Part shown: piece after piece, positions 37,606-46,199 of the stretch | Position numbering within the stretch: the first letter of the stretch is position 1 | Layout: every line of letters starts with the position of its first letter | Notes under the pieces: model-generated | Database searches by the model: none | What the model was told of the DNA's origin: nothing | The model's input: only the letters and a program-made list of their open reading frames with translations | Program-made: the position numbers and the translations under genes | Origin: an archaeon | GTDB lineage: Archaea > Thermoproteota > Nitrososphaeria > Nitrososphaerales > Gagatemarchaeaceae | DNA length: 64,000 bases | NCBI GenBank assembly: GCA_016432545.1 | Contig: CP066694.1 | Span: 744,001 to 808,000, forward strand | Direction of reading: 5' to 3'

Positions 37606-37657
37606 GCCCACTACGCTTTTAGCGGGCAGAAGCCCTCGAGTCACGGACAAAGCTCGC

Positions 37658-38545
37658 TTGAAACAGTCCATGGTAGTCCTCCTCGTTGGAGCGCTCTTAC
37701 TTACAGCGGCCGCGCACGCGAGCGCCGGAAGTCCTCAGAGCACATCCTTCGTGATCCAGGTGTACTCGGACGGCTCATCGCTTCTGACGCAGAAGCTGGC
37801 CGTCCCCTCGGCATCGGCCTCGGTGGAGATCCCCCTCCTCTCGGAAGTCCTCTCCAACGTGGTCGCTACTGACCAGAACGGGTCTCCGCTCTCCTTCAAG
37901 ATATCCGGCTCGAACATCACGGTCTATACGCTCGGGGCGACCCAAGTCACCTTGATCTACGACACGCAGAGCTTGACGAACAAGACCGGGACAGTCTGGT
38001 CGCTGATCTTCGTGACCAGCTACAACACGACCGTAATCCTCCCGAAGTACTCGACGCTAAGTTATGTCTCGGGGACCACCTACTCCCTGAGCGTGCAGGA
38101 AGGCTCGCCCACGGTCACGATCGCTCCGGGCGCGTGGAAGCTCAGCTACGGGGTCTCGGCCGGGACCGGCGGCCCGGGAGGGACGACGACCCAGGGAGGG
38201 GGGCCGTTCGGGATTGTGATCGAAATCGGGTCCGGGGCCTCGCTTCTCGTGGTGCTCGTCGCGGTCGGGGCGGGCGGATTCTTGGCGTTCAGGTGGTGGA
38301 GAGGGAGGCTTGACCTTGGCGCACAGGGGAAGGACCTGAGGCAAGACGATGTGCAGGTGCTCGGCTTCATCAGGGAGAAGGGGGGCAAGGTGCTCGAGCC
38401 AGAGATCAGGACGAGGTTCGCGCTCCCGAAGACGTCGGCCTGGAGGCAGATCAAGCGATTGGAGCGGATGGGCTTCGTCAAGGTGACCAAGATCGGGTCG
38501 CAGAACCAGATAGAGCTTCTGAAAAATGGGGAACCTGGAGCTTAG
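37658..38545 (+). CDS. Membrane-spanning one-component regulator with cytoplasmic winged helix
   Basis: A 295-residue protein: signal peptide (about 5-23), an extracellular beta-sandwich sensor-like region (about 28-165), a Gly-rich linker, one transmembrane helix (about 185-212), then a cytoplasmic winged helix (about 225-290) with DVQVLGFIREKGGKVLEPEIRTRFALPKTSAWRQIKRLERMGFV. Such type-I membrane proteins with a C-terminal DNA-binding domain occur in archaea and could couple an external cue directly to transcription. TTG start. The convergent Ala-rich secreted protein gene overlaps its 3' end by 4 bases. Confidence 0.75.
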   Translation: MKQSMVVLLVGALLLTAAAHASAGSPQSTSFVIQVYSDGSSLLTQKLAVPSASASVEIPLLSEVLSNVVATDQNGSPLSFKISGSNITVYTLGATQVTLIYDTQSLTNKTGTVWSLIFVTSYNTTVILPKYSTLSYVSGTTYSLSVQEGSPTVTIAPGAWKLSYGVSAGTGGPGGTTTQGGGPFGIVIEIGSGASLLVVLVAVGAGGFLAFRWWRGRLDLGAQGKDLRQDDVQVLGFIREKGGKVLEPEIRTRFALPKTSAWRQIKRLERMGFVKVTKIGSQNQIELLKNGEPGA

Positions 38546-40419
38546 GCTTGGGCTGAGGAAGCCGCCTGAAGCTCCACGGTTGCGCTTGCCATCGCCTGCG
38601 CGCCGCCGGCTATGTCCAGGCTCGCGAAGAGCTGGACCGCCTGGTCGACGAAGGCGTTGGCCGATGCTACTTGGGATACCCTCGCTGAGATGTCGCTGTT
38701 GAGGTAGGCGCCCGCCGTCGCGACCGCTGCCGCTGTGGCGTGTGCCTGGGTTGCCAGGGACCCGGACGAGGTCGCCAGGGTGCCCGCCGCCGCACCGAAG
38801 GCCGACGCTCCGAGCTGGAGCGAAGACTGTGCCGCGGTGGTGAAGGAGAGGGCAGCCTGCGAATAGGCCTGGGCCGAGGTCTGGGCTGTGTTGAAGGCCG
38901 CTGCGCCCGTAGTGCTGAGCAGTTGCTGCTCCGTGAGGGCGAGCGAGACGATCGCGGTGACTGAGGATGTGAGGTTCTGAGACGCCGCGAAGTTGGCCAC
39001 TGCGGCGGAGAGGGACTGTGCCTTCGTCTGGGCCGCGCCGACAGCCGATGTCATGCCTGAGAGCGAGGTCCCGACTCCGGACGTGGTGGAGGTCACCGAG
39101 GAGGCCATGGTGTTGAGGGTCGCCTGGACCGCCAGGATCTGGGTGAGGTTCAGGGCGCCCGCTGTGGCGACGAAGGATGCGAGGTTGGTCTGCACGTTGT
39201 GGTATGCTGCGATGTATGCCGACCCAGCCGCTGCGGCGCCTGAAGCGTCCGCGGCAAGGACCGTGTTGTACGACGCGAATGCGCTGACTGTGGTGGATGA
39301 GAAGGCCGTAGCCTGTGAGGAGGCGGTGGAGATGGAGGTTGAGTACGTGGCCGCGGCGGACTGGGCCGCGACTATGGAGGCCGTCAGGCTGGCCGAGGAG
39401 GGAAGTCCGGCGACCAACGACTTGAGGGCCGTGAGGTTCGACTTGACGCTAGCCAGGAGGGCCTGGGACGTGGAGACCGAACTCGCGACAGCGCCAGTCC
39501 CTACGGACGAGATCGCCGCTGCGAGGGCGCTCGCGTTCGAGGAGACTGCGCCAGCCAGGGTGGCTTGCGCGCCGGTCGTCGAGTTGACTTGGGATGACAG
39601 CTGTGCGAGCTGGGTTTGGACGGACTGCTGCGAGAGGATTGTGGAATTGGCGCTGGCGGTGAGGCTCGCGAGGACGTTGGAGACGAAGTTGTGGGCACGC
39701 ACTAGGTAGGTTGTGGAGGCGACAGTCGAGAGCGCTGCGGTGGCCTTGGCGAACTCCGCCCTTGCTCTGACGAGAAGGGCAGCCGCTCGAGCCAGGTTGA
39801 CCTGGACCGAGGCGTTTGCCTTGGCCTGGGCCACGAAGCTGGCCGCTTGCGTCACGGTGGCGCTGGCGTTGGCGAGGTGCGCCGAGACCTGGGCGCAGGC
39901 CTGAGCATAGGTGCTGGCGTTGTTGGTCGTGGAAGAGGCTCCTGCGCAGGCTTGTGCCGCGATCTGGGCGACTATGGAGACTGTCGCGTTGACTTCGGCG
40001 ACGGCACCCGCGGCCGCGTCGACGTCCACCGACGCTTCTAGCCCTGCGCTCCTGAGGCCCGCTGAAGCAAAGATGCCGGCCTTGGTGTAGGCGAGCATGG
40101 CTGCCTGAGCGCCCTGGAGGCCTGCGGTCAGGTTGCTCCCGGAGGCGAGGGATGCGTTGGCTATGGCCATCTGGGCGTCTCCTGACGCGAAGAGGCTCTG
40201 GGCCAAGGAGACGTCGAGGGAGTGGATCGCTGCTGCCGTGATTGTGCCCGAGGCGTAGGAGCGGGCTGAGAGGGCGACGTTCACTGCGTTTTGGAGCTGC
40301 GCGCCGGTTGTGGCGCCGCTGGTGACTTGGGCGAGTACTGCGATTGGGACTATTGTCCCGGCGACCAGTAGGCAAGCCACGGCCGCCGGTAGGAGGGTTC
40401 GTTCGGACCGAGTTTTCAT
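38542..40419 (-). CDS. Large secreted Ala/Ser-rich helical protein
   Basis: A 625-residue protein with a signal peptide (about residues 9-31) and an extremely Ala/Ser/Thr-rich mature part with regularly spaced hydrophobics (e.g. VSIVAQIAAQACAG, TLNTMASSVTSTTSGVGTSL), predicted as long alpha-helical or coiled-coil segments. Two cysteines (CAGAS, QACAQ) near residues 158 and 174. No C-terminal anchor. The promoter is nearly identical to that of the 40733-41773 gene, including a palindromic operator, so the two secreted proteins are likely coregulated. Function unknown; a fibrous surface or adhesive layer is possible. Confidence 0.7.
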   Translation of the reverse strand: MKTRSERTLLPAAVACLLVAGTIVPIAVLAQVTSGATTGAQLQNAVNVALSARSYASGTITAAAIHSLDVSLAQSLFASGDAQMAIANASLASGSNLTAGLQGAQAAMLAYTKAGIFASAGLRSAGLEASVDVDAAAGAVAEVNATVSIVAQIAAQACAGASSTTNNASTYAQACAQVSAHLANASATVTQAASFVAQAKANASVQVNLARAAALLVRARAEFAKATAALSTVASTTYLVRAHNFVSNVLASLTASANSTILSQQSVQTQLAQLSSQVNSTTGAQATLAGAVSSNASALAAAISSVGTGAVASSVSTSQALLASVKSNLTALKSLVAGLPSSASLTASIVAAQSAAATYSTSISTASSQATAFSSTTVSAFASYNTVLAADASGAAAAGSAYIAAYHNVQTNLASFVATAGALNLTQILAVQATLNTMASSVTSTTSGVGTSLSGMTSAVGAAQTKAQSLSAAVANFAASQNLTSSVTAIVSLALTEQQLLSTTGAAAFNTAQTSAQAYSQAALSFTTAAQSSLQLGASAFGAAAGTLATSSGSLATQAHATAAAVATAGAYLNSDISARVSQVASANAFVDQAVQLFASLDIAGGAQAMASATVELQAASSAQA

Positions 40420-40442: not shown

Positions 40443-40472
40443 GGATAAGGAACCCTCTGGAACGAGCGTTCC
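40443..40472 (-). promoter_or_regulatory. Promoter with palindromic operator, copy A
   Basis: On the minus strand: GGAACGCTCGTTCC (40459-40472), 3 bases, GGGTTCC (40449-40455), then TTATCC as TATA (40443-40448), and ATG 40419 exactly 23 nt later. The same elements with the same spacing precede the gene at 41773. The palindrome is placed where an activator or repressor would contact TFB/TBP. Confidence 0.7.
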
Positions 40473-40474
40473 AC

Positions 40475-40708
40475 TCAGTGAGAGGGCCTCTCGGGGGGAG
40501 CGGTCCGGAAGAACTCCTCGAGGGCCCAGATCGCAAAGTCAGTCTCCATCAGGCGCGACCCGAGGCGCTCCCTCTGCTTCATCAGGCGCCTGAGCTTGGC
40601 CGCCTTGATGGCCGGCGAGTCTTCCACGGGTTCTTCCACAGGCCGCCTCAGGCTGAGGGCCGGACGGCGGGGATTGGTAATCGTAAGTCGTCTTTGTTCG
40701 CGGCTCAT
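40475..40708 (-). CDS. Small basic helical protein
   Basis: A 77-residue protein with a basic N-terminus rich in Arg and Pro and a charged helix (about residues 33-70: KAAKLRRLMKQRERLGSRLMETDFAIWAL) that could form a coiled coil. It lies between the two coregulated secreted protein genes and after the terminator of the first. Its stop is 2 bases from the operator of the next. No family recognised. Confidence 0.5.
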   Translation of the reverse strand: MSREQRRLTITNPRRPALSLRRPVEEPVEDSPAIKAAKLRRLMKQRERLGSRLMETDFAIWALEEFFRTAPPERPSH

Positions 40709-40711
40709 TGG

Positions 40712-40747
40712 AAAAAAAGGGTCAGTGGTGGCCTACGAGGCCACCAC
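40712..40747 (-). terminator. Hairpin plus T7 terminator
   Basis: Perfect 9-bp stem GTGGTGGCC/GGCCACCAC (40725-40733 with 40739-40747, 5-nt loop) overlapping the stop codon of the 40733-41773 gene. On the minus strand it is followed by seven consecutive T at 40712-40718. Confidence 0.8.
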
Positions 40748-41773
40748 TAGGACGTTGGCGTAGGTGTTTGCTCCTATGACAGTGACCAGGTACTGCTGCC
40801 CGGTCACGATCCCGGTGACTTGGACGCTGCCGGCGCCGAAGTTCAACGAGATGGCCCCGTTGTAGTTCAGGGTCACCATCGAGCCGGAGGTGACGTTGGC
40901 CCCTGCGTTGAGCAGGGCCGTTGATTGGATGGAGGTGGTGGACTGGACTGAGCCCGAACCGTTCACGGTGAAGACCGCGGAGCCGGTGATCGAGCTGGGG
41001 AGCGTGGTGCTGGTGTATGTGGCTGCGGATACGGGGGTCACGATGACCTCCTGGATCTGGGCCTTGGCGTTTCCGGAGTTCTGGACGGTGAGGACCATGG
41101 AGTTGCTCCTCAAGGTCCCGAAGACGGAGACGCTTGTGCTCGTCGATGCCTGGAAGTCAGACCACCAGGCCTGCCCCGAGAGGCTGGCCGTTGATCCGAG
41201 CTGGATGGAGATGGAGACGAGTGCGCTGGATGGAATCCCTGTCGCCACCGCTGAGGCGGCGAAGATGAACTGGGGGCTGGTAGAGGTGCCTGCGTTGACT
41301 ATGAAGGTGCGCAGGTCGACCACTGCCGCTGCCCTCGAGGAGTCCGCGACCACGACCCTGCTCTGTGAGTGGGCCGTGACCGTGGTGGAGGAGACTGTGG
41401 CTATGTACTCGTGGCCCTGGAAGACGACCTTGGCCGAGTCGACGCGTAGGCGGAAGGCGTCATACGAGGCCGCTCTTACCTGAGAGACGGCGATCGTCTG
41501 CGCCGAGCCGCTGGCGCCGACAAGACGCATAGTCCCCGAGCCGGAGACTTGGGTCCAGCCGCTGGCCATGTCCGAGCCCGCTGTGTGTGCCATGACTGAG
41601 CTGTAGTGGATGGAGGCGTCCGTGACGCCGTAGGCGGTGATCGGGGGGTCAGTGCCCATCAGGGCGAGCTGCCCCGAGCCGCCGGGACTTTGGCTTAGGA
41701 GGACCGCTGCCGCCCCGATCGCGACGACCAGGACTGCGGCGATCGCTACTGCCGCGACGTATGTTTTCTTCAT
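40733..41773 (-). CDS. Membrane-anchored extracellular protein with DUF4382-like domain
   Basis: A 346-residue protein with an N-terminal transmembrane helix or signal (about residues 5-27). Residues 35-185 resemble DUF4382: LALMGTDPPITAYGVTDASIHYSSV at the start, VRAASYDAFRLRVDSAKVVF in the middle and a late FIFAASAV strand. The rest is Ser/Thr-rich beta sandwich. DUF4382 proteins are secreted and of unknown role. The promoter and operator match those of the Ala-rich protein gene downstream. Confidence 0.7.
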   Translation of the reverse strand: MKKTYVAAVAIAAVLVVAIGAAAVLLSQSPGGSGQLALMGTDPPITAYGVTDASIHYSSVMAHTAGSDMASGWTQVSGSGTMRLVGASGSAQTIAVSQVRAASYDAFRLRVDSAKVVFQGHEYIATVSSTTVTAHSQSRVVVADSSRAAAVVDLRTFIVNAGTSTSPQFIFAASAVATGIPSSALVSISIQLGSTASLSGQAWWSDFQASTSTSVSVFGTLRSNSMVLTVQNSGNAKAQIQEVIVTPVSAATYTSTTLPSSITGSAVFTVNGSGSVQSTTSIQSTALLNAGANVTSGSMVTLNYNGAISLNFGAGSVQVTGIVTGQQYLVTVIGANTYANVLVVAS

Positions 41774-41797
41774 AGGGGCACGTTGGCGGCCGGGGGT

Positions 41798-41826
41798 GAT
41801 TAGGAACCCCGAGGAACATGCGTTCC
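41798..41826 (-). promoter_or_regulatory. Promoter with palindromic operator, copy B
   Basis: On the minus strand: GGAACGCATGTTCC (41813-41826), GGGTTCC (41803-41809), TAATCA as TATA (41797-41802), then ATG 41773 exactly 23 nt later. The layout and most bases match copy A at 40443-40472. Confidence 0.7.
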
Positions 41827-41899
41827 CGAAGGGGGTGGAACGGTGTTCTGCGAATCCGGGCCTGTTCAGCGACTTTGAGAGCGTCGAGGCCTCTCGGGC

Positions 41900-42326: not shown

Positions 42327-43553
42327 TTGATGATCCAGGGCGAACTGGATGCAATCACAAGCCGATTCTGGGAGATGCGCCACGAGAGACGAGACGTCGA
42401 AGCCTACGAGCGGTACCTCGACATCTTCAGGCTTCATTCAGACGGTAAGAGCGACGCGCAAGTCGGAAGGATGTTGCACATGAACAATGTAGGCAAGTAC
42501 CTGAAGGGTCAGAAAAGGCCGTTCCTTGCGACCATGGCATCGTGGGCAGAGCGCCTCGGGCAGCCCCGTGAAGGATGGCAGTGGCTACCTTTGAGTCTAA
42601 GGCCGAGAGGGACGCCTGGAGACGAATGGATTCAAGTACCCACAGAGGTTCGGTATTTCCGAGACATATCCAATGTATTGAATCAGCTCCGGCCGAAGGA
42701 TGTCTCCCCAGAAGAATTGTCCGACTTTGGATTCTCAAGTAGGTCCGGAATGGAAAACGAGAAGGCCCTCCTGTTTGGTTTCTTTCTGGGAGCGACCATT
42801 GGAGACGCAGGGAAGCACACAAAGGGCGAGAGCCACTTCGAGAGCAAATCCATTTCGTTGATGCTATCCATGGCGAAACCTAACAGTCTCAGGTTCGGCG
42901 AGTTTGCAACTCTCTCCGTCAGAGCCTCGCTGGGCCTTGCTATGCATCGTATCGCCGATTCGCCCATGAGTACCGGTAGATACTCGAAGGCGGCGTGCTT
43001 TCAATGGCTTACCCCTTCCTCACCTCTTCTTGCCTGGGTCTTTCATGTCTGTCTGGGGTTGAAAAAGGGCGAGCTTACCACGTATGATGCCCTCAGAATG
43101 CCGTGGCTACTGAACTCCCCTGCAAGGTTCAAAGTCGCAGTCCTCCAAGGGGTCTGCGAGTCTGACGGTTGGGTCGACGCAGCGGCAGATACGGCCTGCT
43201 TCGTGAGTTCTCCGAACACCACGTTGTTTTCCAGATTGTTGGAGAGGTTGAACACTCCTTACCGTGTAGACCGCCAGAAGTTGGTCGAAGTAACTCGGAT
43301 TCCAACAAGCTATGCCGCAGGACTATGTCTCTTCAACTCCAGAATTCGTAGTGTGTACTATCGACAATTGAGTTGCATGAGCAAGGCAACACGACTTCCC
43401 GAAAGAGTGAGACTGCGCTCCGAAGTTGTCGGTTGGATCCAAGAACTGGCGGCACATAACGGAAGGATTAGCGAGATTTGCCTAGCCCTTGCAACAAAGT
43501 ATCACATCAAGGTCGCTGGGAACACGGTGAGGAGGTACACCCAGTTCCTGTGA
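42327..43553 (+). CDS. Freestanding LAGLIDADG-type homing-endonuclease-like protein
   Basis: A 408-residue protein. The N-terminal part (about 1-90) includes a helix-turn-helix-like stretch (SDGKSDAQVGRMLHMNNVGKYLKG). Two LAGLIDADG-like helices follow: LFGFFLGATIGDAG (about 148-161) and LQGVCESDGWVD (about 273-284), the spacing expected for a monomeric two-motif enzyme. A C-terminal HTH-like segment (ISEICLALATKYHIKVAGNTVRRYTQF) may bind DNA. The reading frame looks less GC-rich than its neighbours, with many codons ending in A/T, which suggests transfer. It is not inside another gene, so it may be domesticated or an orphan invader. Confidence 0.7.
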   Translation: MMIQGELDAITSRFWEMRHERRDVEAYERYLDIFRLHSDGKSDAQVGRMLHMNNVGKYLKGQKRPFLATMASWAERLGQPREGWQWLPLSLRPRGTPGDEWIQVPTEVRYFRDISNVLNQLRPKDVSPEELSDFGFSSRSGMENEKALLFGFFLGATIGDAGKHTKGESHFESKSISLMLSMAKPNSLRFGEFATLSVRASLGLAMHRIADSPMSTGRYSKAACFQWLTPSSPLLAWVFHVCLGLKKGELTTYDALRMPWLLNSPARFKVAVLQGVCESDGWVDAAADTACFVSSPNTTLFSRLLERLNTPYRVDRQKLVEVTRIPTSYAAGLCLFNSRIRSVYYRQLSCMSKATRLPERVRLRSEVVGWIQELAAHNGRISEICLALATKYHIKVAGNTVRRYTQFL

Positions 43554-45404: not shown

Positions 45405-46199
45405 ATGGCCGAAAAGAGCGGCGCGACCGGAAGGCAGTCGTTGAGCGAGCGGGCCGGGGCCGCCTTAGAGGACCTTGGTCTGACTGGGAGCGAAGTCAAG
45501 GCCTACGTGGCCCTCCTTAGAGGCGGAACGATGACCGCGAGCGACGTCAGCAGGGAGGCGAGGATACCCTACTCAAAGGTCTACGAGGCTCTGGAGGCGC
45601 TACACAAGAAGGGGTGGGTCGAGGAGCAGAAGAGCAGGCCGATCTTCTACACTGCGAAGCCGCCGGACACCGCGCTGGAGGAGCTCAGGTCAAGGCAGGA
45701 GACGGAGAGGAGCGAGAAGGAGAGGCTTGCGCTGGACGAACTGATGGGAGTCTACGTGAGCAGGGGCGAGCAGGAGAAGCCGGACATCTGGATCATGAGG
45801 GGGACCAACGAGATACTTTCGAGGGTCAAGAACCTGCTATTGAACTGCAGGACAGAGCTACTGATCGCCCTGCCGCCTTCGCTGCTGCCCTTCACCGAGA
45901 GGATCGAGCCCCTCCTGGCCGCGCTCAAGGAGAAGGGGGTGAGGTGCATGGTGCTCACCTCCCCGGAGCTTCCGAAGGAGGCCGGTGAGCAGCTAGGTAG
46001 GTACTCGGAGATCAGGGTGAGGAAGACGATGTATGGGGGAGGCCTCATCTCGGACTCGAGGGAGGTGGTCCTCCTTCTGGGAGGAGGGGAGCAGGGGGGC
46101 CTTCCGCTCGCCATCTGGGCGTCGCACCACGGGCTGGCCAGCTTCGCGAAGGACTACTTCGAGTTCCTGTGGAATTCGCAGGGGACCTCCAGGGTATGA
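45405..46199 (+). CDS. TrmB-family transcriptional regulator
   Basis: A 264-residue protein with an N-terminal TrmB winged helix (LEDLGLTGSEVKAYVALLRGGTMTASDVSREARIPYSKVYEALEALHKKGWV, about residues 20-72), a charged coiled coil (about 85-115) and a C-terminal phospholipase-D-like sensor domain (about 120-258) as in many archaeal TrmB proteins. It is divergent from tes and is a candidate regulator of membrane lipid composition; that is inference from position. Its stop overlaps the next gene by 4 bases (ATGA). Confidence 0.8.
   Translation: MAEKSGATGRQSLSERAGAALEDLGLTGSEVKAYVALLRGGTMTASDVSREARIPYSKVYEALEALHKKGWVEEQKSRPIFYTAKPPDTALEELRSRQETERSEKERLALDELMGVYVSRGEQEKPDIWIMRGTNEILSRVKNLLLNCRTELLIALPPSLLPFTERIEPLLAALKEKGVRCMVLTSPELPKEAGEQLGRYSEIRVRKTMYGGGLISDSREVVLLLGGGEQGGLPLAIWASHHGLASFAKDYFEFLWNSQGTSRV

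Follow-up and report, generated by a model that had tools for sequence, protein, structure and literature searches.

Transmembrane transcription regulators, proteins that combine a transmembrane region with a DNA-binding domain in one polypeptide, have been enumerated in a protein-counting survey, with single-pass proteins as the most frequent type; its main text nowhere uses the words 'operator', 'Thaumarchaeota' or 'Nitroso' (PMC10269533). The closest archaeal systems are ArnR and ArnR1 of Sulfolobus acidocaldarius, which, in the available text of the source, are membrane-bound one-component regulators of surface-structure genes, the ArnR boxes being inverted repeats, TCGAC-N5-GTCGA, upstream of the BRE/TATA, in a fragment from -43 to -84 (PMC6396743). 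A further relevant case is EarA of Methanococcus maripaludis, described in the available portions of two sources as a winged-helix activator that binds just upstream of its promoter and that is probably needed for recruitment of the basal machinery at a weak BRE (PMC13286277, PMC6396743).

The locus considered here lies in a stretch of 64,000 nucleotides of archaeal DNA, which we denote the window. Two genes of the window, A and B, are each preceded by an operator of the same design, and the gene at 37658, next to gene B, encodes a candidate regulator with a predicted single transmembrane helix and a winged helix-turn-helix (wHTH) domain in one chain. By prediction, then, this protein is a transmembrane transcription regulator, in the sense of a DNA-binding domain and at least one transmembrane region in the same protein. 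Like ArnR, as far as the available description goes, the candidate is predicted to be a membrane-bound one-component regulator, and the putative target promoters contain an inverted repeat upstream of the BRE/TATA. However, the HTH of ArnR is N-terminal, with a putative HAMP region after it, whereas in the candidate a C-terminal wHTH comes after a signal helix, a beta domain and one transmembrane helix, and a Pfam search with the candidate gave no HAMP match; the ArnR box, TCGAC-N5-GTCGA, differs from the GGAAC-N4-GTTCC found here, and the targets are unrelated. Given that both the domain order and the box differ, the candidate is not an ArnR.

The likeness to EarA, in the portions of the sources available, is that of an archaeal winged-helix protein with a putative site just upstream of the promoter; yet EarA binds six-base repeats (TACATA, four times), in contrast to the combination of a palindrome and a half-site at the BRE found here. 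EarA is a soluble protein. The LexA/DinR box is CGAAC-N4-GTTCG, and the arms GAAC-N4-GTTC occur in the present operator as well, but the Pfam matches of the candidate include no LexA peptidase (S24 autopeptidase) domain, so that it is not a LexA. The SurR site, GTTn3AACn5GTT, is similar in having an extra half-site 5 bases on and differs in orientation and spacing. In the literature searched, with subscription journals and supplements outside its scope, we found neither this operator nor this family of regulators described, and little about cell-surface adjustment in these archaea.

Two promoters of one design

An earlier note on this DNA described, upstream of both genes, a palindrome, the motif GGGTTCC, a TATA-like hexamer and a gap of 23 nt to the ATG, and all these elements are present as it described them. 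Its notion of a shared promoter holds insofar as the same design recurs at both genes, but these are two separate promoters rather than a single shared one. On the minus strand, the promoter of gene B reads GGAACGCTCGTTCC-AGAG-GGTTCC-TTATCC-23 nt-ATG (ATG at 40419), and that of gene A reads GGAACGCATGTTCC-TCGG-GGTTCC-TAATCA-23 nt-ATG (ATG at 41773). The features of the locus are as follows.

37616..37623, plus strand: conserved TATA-like element CTTTTAGC of the candidate regulator gene
37658..38545, plus strand: candidate regulator, predicted membrane wHTH protein; overlaps gene B tail-to-tail by 4 bp
38542..40419, minus strand: gene B, 625 aa, predicted exported, Ala/Ser/Thr-rich
40443..40448, minus strand: TATA-like element TTATCC, 23 nt 5' of the gene B ATG, with a probable leaderless start
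40445..40472, minus strand: operator B, comprising the palindrome (40472-40459), N4, the third half-site GGTTCC and the first 4 bases of the TATA-like element
40475..40708, minus strand: 77-aa small ORF, located between genes A and B
40733..41773, minus strand: gene A, 346 aa, N-terminal membrane anchor or signal, beta-rich
41797..41802, minus strand: TATA-like element TAATCA, 23 nt 5' of the gene A ATG
41799..41826, minus strand: operator A, comprising the palindrome (41826-41813), N4, the half-site GGTTCC and TAAT
41837..41842, minus strand: extra half-site CGTTCC further upstream in the gene A promoter

At both promoters, the ATG is 53 nt from the start of the palindrome, and the half-sites GGAAC, GTTCC and GTTCC start at offsets 0, 9 and 19, so that half-site 3 is located 10 bp, or one helical turn, past half-site 2, over the BRE position. 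The inverted repeat, GGAACG-N2-CGTTCC, spans 14 bp and is centered about 46 bp upstream of the start; the TATA-like hexamer occupies -29 to -24. In archaeal promoter geometry, a TATA element at such a distance is the basis for reading the start as leaderless, and on these grounds the starts of A and B are probably leaderless.

The composite GGAAC-N4-GTTCC-N5-GTTCC has exactly two exact matches in the 1,504,237-base genome, both in the window and both at -53 of an ATG, against an expectation from base composition of about 0.003 (0.001-0.004) per genome. Random placement of the palindrome relative to promoters, the outcome that the earlier note had named as counting against its reading, was not what the genome-wide scan showed. 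The palindrome GGAACGNNNGTTCC alone occurs at one further genomic place, within a coding frame, and this third palindrome and the two 2-mismatch places of the composite in the same genome all lie under open frames. When loosened to at most 2 mismatches, the palindrome is not enriched in the window (13 matches vs 24.9 expected). A larger regulon in this genome was considered and rejected: the composite at up to 3 mismatches yields 48 matches, 46 of them with 2-3 mismatches, compared to 114 for the control.

The coding sequences of A and B are unrelated, as had been noted before, with no mutual BLASTP match at E<=0.01. Gene A has a weak, below-cut-off match to DUF4382 and a structure model with a mean pLDDT of 52; for gene B, the Pfam search returned no match. 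The small ORF between them is conserved in the loci of 8 other genomes, with a C-terminal helix motif in the relatives, LRLLMKERE...LDYxIWxLEEFFR, and lacks a clear ATG in several of these, where its start is uncertain.

Conservation of the operator within the genus

The composite extended by TWAT, at no more than 1 mismatch, is found at 21 places in 11 of the 31 genomes of the genus (the G007 and G008 copies among these sites are identical), whereas the reversed-pattern control gives 0. At these 21 sites, the first ATG, searched from +45, falls at +53 to +55. A survey that began from the genes, and hence was independent of the search pattern, located the element at the same place upstream of 12/12 copies of gene A and 10/10 copies of gene B examined, which lends strong support to the proposal that a common regulator controls the two. 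Eighteen of these 22 copies have no mismatch, two have 1, one has 2 and one has 4, the 12 gene A copies dividing into 11 with 0-2 mismatches and the one with 4. For comparison, 3,994 of 4,000 random 100-base stretches of the window score at least 5 mismatches, and the other six score 0, a value attainable only where a stretch contains a real site. Mean information is 1.7-1.9 bits across the operator and TATA, with the columns fixed by the pattern inflated by construction, vs 0.3 far upstream.

Within the genus, the two promoter types stay distinct: that of A is characterized by TAATC and an extra upstream CGTTCC-N4-CGTTCG, the block reading CGTTCC-N4-CGTTCG-GGAACG in the relatives, and that of B by TTATCC. 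These patterns bear on the idea that the resemblance of the two promoters arose by chance or through recent duplication of one of them. In its favor, the genome has just two copies, but the minute expected number, the unrelated coding sequences, the consistent differences between the promoters (with extra half-sites only in A) and the maintenance of the element in 11 genomes of the genus and in other families all speak against it; conservation excludes this origin, to which we assign a practically nil probability.

The genes themselves are distributed like the operator. Gene B is present in the same 11 of the 31 genomes, and the wHTH gene is found in these 11 and in G002, the latter yielding just a broken copy, a partial gene containing a stop. 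The co-occurrence of the operator and the wHTH gene is significant by Fisher's test (p about 1e-7), a value to be read with the caveat that the genes travel together and so are not independent; since A, B and the wHTH gene move as one unit, their joint presence within the genus counts for little by itself. This triad is kept in G012, G007 and G008 despite different outer neighbors. A stop codon interrupts the wHTH homologues at L116:593-1492 (G042) and in G002:C14, through either assembly error or decay.

Several copies or fragments of gene A occur in a single genome, on contigs C46, C137, C117 and C83 of G009; the C117 copy (50% identity) is the one with a degenerate operator of 4 mismatches. 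The operator is missing from most of the distant gene A paralogues. Nine of the 16 listed upstream regions of gene A paralogues share another block, roughly CCACGTTCAAAAACRTTGGTTGATAA and partial in some, about 70-110 nt 5' of the matched start (L023, L025, L029, L030, L031, L032, L033, L034 and L037), perhaps the site of a paralogous regulator.

The operator and the wHTH family across the class

Outside the genus, the link between the operator and the wHTH gene can be followed in other genomes of the class. A wHTH profile search was positive in 209 of 300 class genomes, and 18 stretches around homologues were inspected, one being the broken G002 copy. In G065, which belongs to another family of the class (f20), the wHTH domain is 84% and the ectodomain 49% identical to those encoded in the window; 18 consecutive residues across the recognition helix are unchanged, and the wHTH gene is flanked by two exact operators. 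One of these leads into a 624-aa exported homologue of gene B (E 1e-14), which is tail-to-tail with the wHTH gene as in the window, so that the arrangement "operator > gene B-like < wHTH" is kept in another family; the second leads into a 154-aa ORF that does not appear to be exported. In G035 and G299, the wHTH gene has an operator at its end, ahead of a gene for an exported helical protein, and in G227 an operator directly behind the wHTH gene leads into the next gene. No composite was seen near the wHTH gene in the other stretches inspected (families f10, f21, f22 and f6, and G030).

The class-wide scan of the 300 genomes allowed at most 2 mismatches to the pattern GGAACGNNYGTTCCNNNNNNTYCCTWAW, which had been drawn up with the sites of the genus, L149 and L152-L155 already in view. 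The total of 39 places in 26 genomes is not above background (about 41 in the reversed control), and the signal resides only in the 0-1 mismatch class, with 17 exact places vs about 0.01 expected and 5 one-mismatch places vs 0.6-0.8 expected. Seven of these 22 places are new finds beyond the pattern-defining sites (three in G037, two in G208, and one each in G227 and G026). The 22 places are distributed over 12 genomes, all 12 wHTH-positive (p=0.012, given 209/300 overall), and eight of the ten closest wHTH holders, those above 200 bits, are among these 12 (p=1.5e-11). The wHTH family (209/300) is far wider than the operator (12/300), so that many of its members must use other sites. With the co-occurrence, the tail-to-tail adjacency (-11 to +4 bp in 9/9 loci measured, G065 included) and the presence of the operator beside homologues in other families, the earlier nomination of the membrane wHTH protein as a candidate is well supported.

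Two other candidates for the factor that reads this element have to be considered here. The regulator could be a soluble protein encoded in trans, for example a winged-helix protein of the small HTH_45 type or the TrmB at 45405, with the membrane wHTH merely a neighbor. In favor of such a reading are a small HTH_45 gene with a 2-mismatch operator upstream in G037 and G208, and the small winged-helix gene that precedes the membrane wHTH gene, behind a GTTCC-repeat promoter, in the f10 genomes inspected. HTH_45 relatives, however, are present in 29/31 genomes of the genus, mostly without the operator, and thus do not track it, and in the G012, G007 and G008 loci the triad has no TrmB gene next to it; we regard this explanation as unlikely. 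Even less probable, to the point of being hardly credible, is the view that the element is no operator at all but a specialized core promoter recognized by a TFB paralogue: GGTTCC-TWAT is indeed contiguous with the TATA element, but the 14-bp inverted repeat and the further upstream half-sites are larger than a BRE, and the element tracks the wHTH gene.

In the f10 genomes (L160, L161, L162, L163, L165 and L166), the promoter of the small winged-helix gene upstream of the membrane wHTH gene contains conserved GTTCC/GTTYC direct repeats that end in GTTCCTCATTAA or similar, with a different spacing, and looks like a variant of the operator.

A candidate membrane-tethered regulator and its putative targets

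The protein encoded at 37658 is predicted to comprise a signal helix (residues 3-20), a beta ectodomain (28-167), a transmembrane helix (196-218) and a cytoplasmic wHTH (229-290). The wHTH is modeled at pLDDT 84-91, and the remainder of the model is weak (mean 60.7); the transmembrane helix, with a basic stretch after it, is predicted at low confidence (pLDDT about 50-60). In a Foldseek search, MarR-type winged helices predominate among the top ranks (best E 3.6e-3, with no match <=1e-3); Pfam matches to DUF7343 and MarR_2 are below cut-off (19.3 bits vs 27 for MarR_2) and NCBIfam matches to Lrs14/Sta1 far below it. Identity to the protein of the window, in the genus and in G065, is 83-91% over the wHTH domain and 49-56% over the ectodomain. 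A search for autoregulation revealed no operator upstream of the wHTH gene in the genus.

The operator, its spacing and conservation, the co-occurrence and adjacency of the genes, and the predicted architecture of the protein are read directly from sequence; binding by the wHTH protein, its dimeric mode, activation in preference to repression, and the nature of the signal are what we infer from them. It appears likely that the membrane-tethered wHTH protein binds the operator as a dimer and controls, probably activates, A and B depending on the state of the surface. The exported beta-rich ectodomain would read that state, and the cytoplasmic wHTH would grip the inverted repeat from the membrane and also touch the half-site GGTTCC over the BRE, so that a surface signal would be linked to transcription of the exported-protein genes A and B, probably in the activating direction.

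As for the direction of control, we lean toward activation, which fits the position of the operator upstream of the BRE, resembling that of the ArnR boxes, although the half-site at the BRE could equally serve repression. Under the latter scenario, the membrane wHTH would repress, with the BRE half-site blocking TFB/TBP until a surface signal brings release. The placement of half-site 3 directly at the BRE position in the sites is compatible with such a block, but the position of the main palindrome, 5' of the core promoter, is that of the ArnR boxes of archaeal activators in the available text of the source (PMC6396743), and repression seems to us possible but rather doubtful. An argument for activation from a weak TATA was abandoned: the best 8-mer of both targets has an A+T count of 6, the commonest value among the 50 window genes scored.

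What the putatively activating regulator would control more broadly is suggested by the 13 genes behind 0-1-mismatch places outside the genus, with chosen starts 48-66 nt past the palindrome start. Eight have a strongly hydrophobic N-terminus, two more have a Tat-like RR motif and three do not look exported; export enrichment did not reach significance in a crude hydrophobicity test (8/13 vs 24/60, p=0.13; 10/13 when the two Tat-like signals are counted). The targets include helical exported proteins, several of them inter-related (E 1e-36 to 1e-3) and linked via G065 to gene B, an HtrA-like Trypsin_2-PDZ protease in G037, a helical protein with a matrixin domain in G227 and DUF1800 proteins; in G208, a 2-mismatch place precedes another matrixin.

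This list of helical exported, HtrA-like, matrixin and DUF1800 proteins is the basis of a tentative hypothesis, namely, that a one-protein envelope-quality response operates across several families of one archaeal class. The tethered winged-helix protein would sense the surface directly and, acting through the conserved palindrome-plus-BRE operator, induce both HtrA-like and matrixin-type proteases and helical exported proteins that resemble chaperones or scaffolds. If true, bacterial envelope-stress responses would have an archaeal counterpart that dispenses with both a kinase and a sigma factor. Sequence alone thus suffices to name an operator, a candidate regulator and a few targets that hold across several families, and the regulator-operator pair is directly testable with the soluble wHTH domain and 60-bp DNA.

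Elsewhere in the window, positions 42327-43553 (plus strand) hold a 408-aa ORF with no Pfam match; in the loci of G009, G041 and G042, too, relatives of this ORF adjoin the radical-SAM gene.
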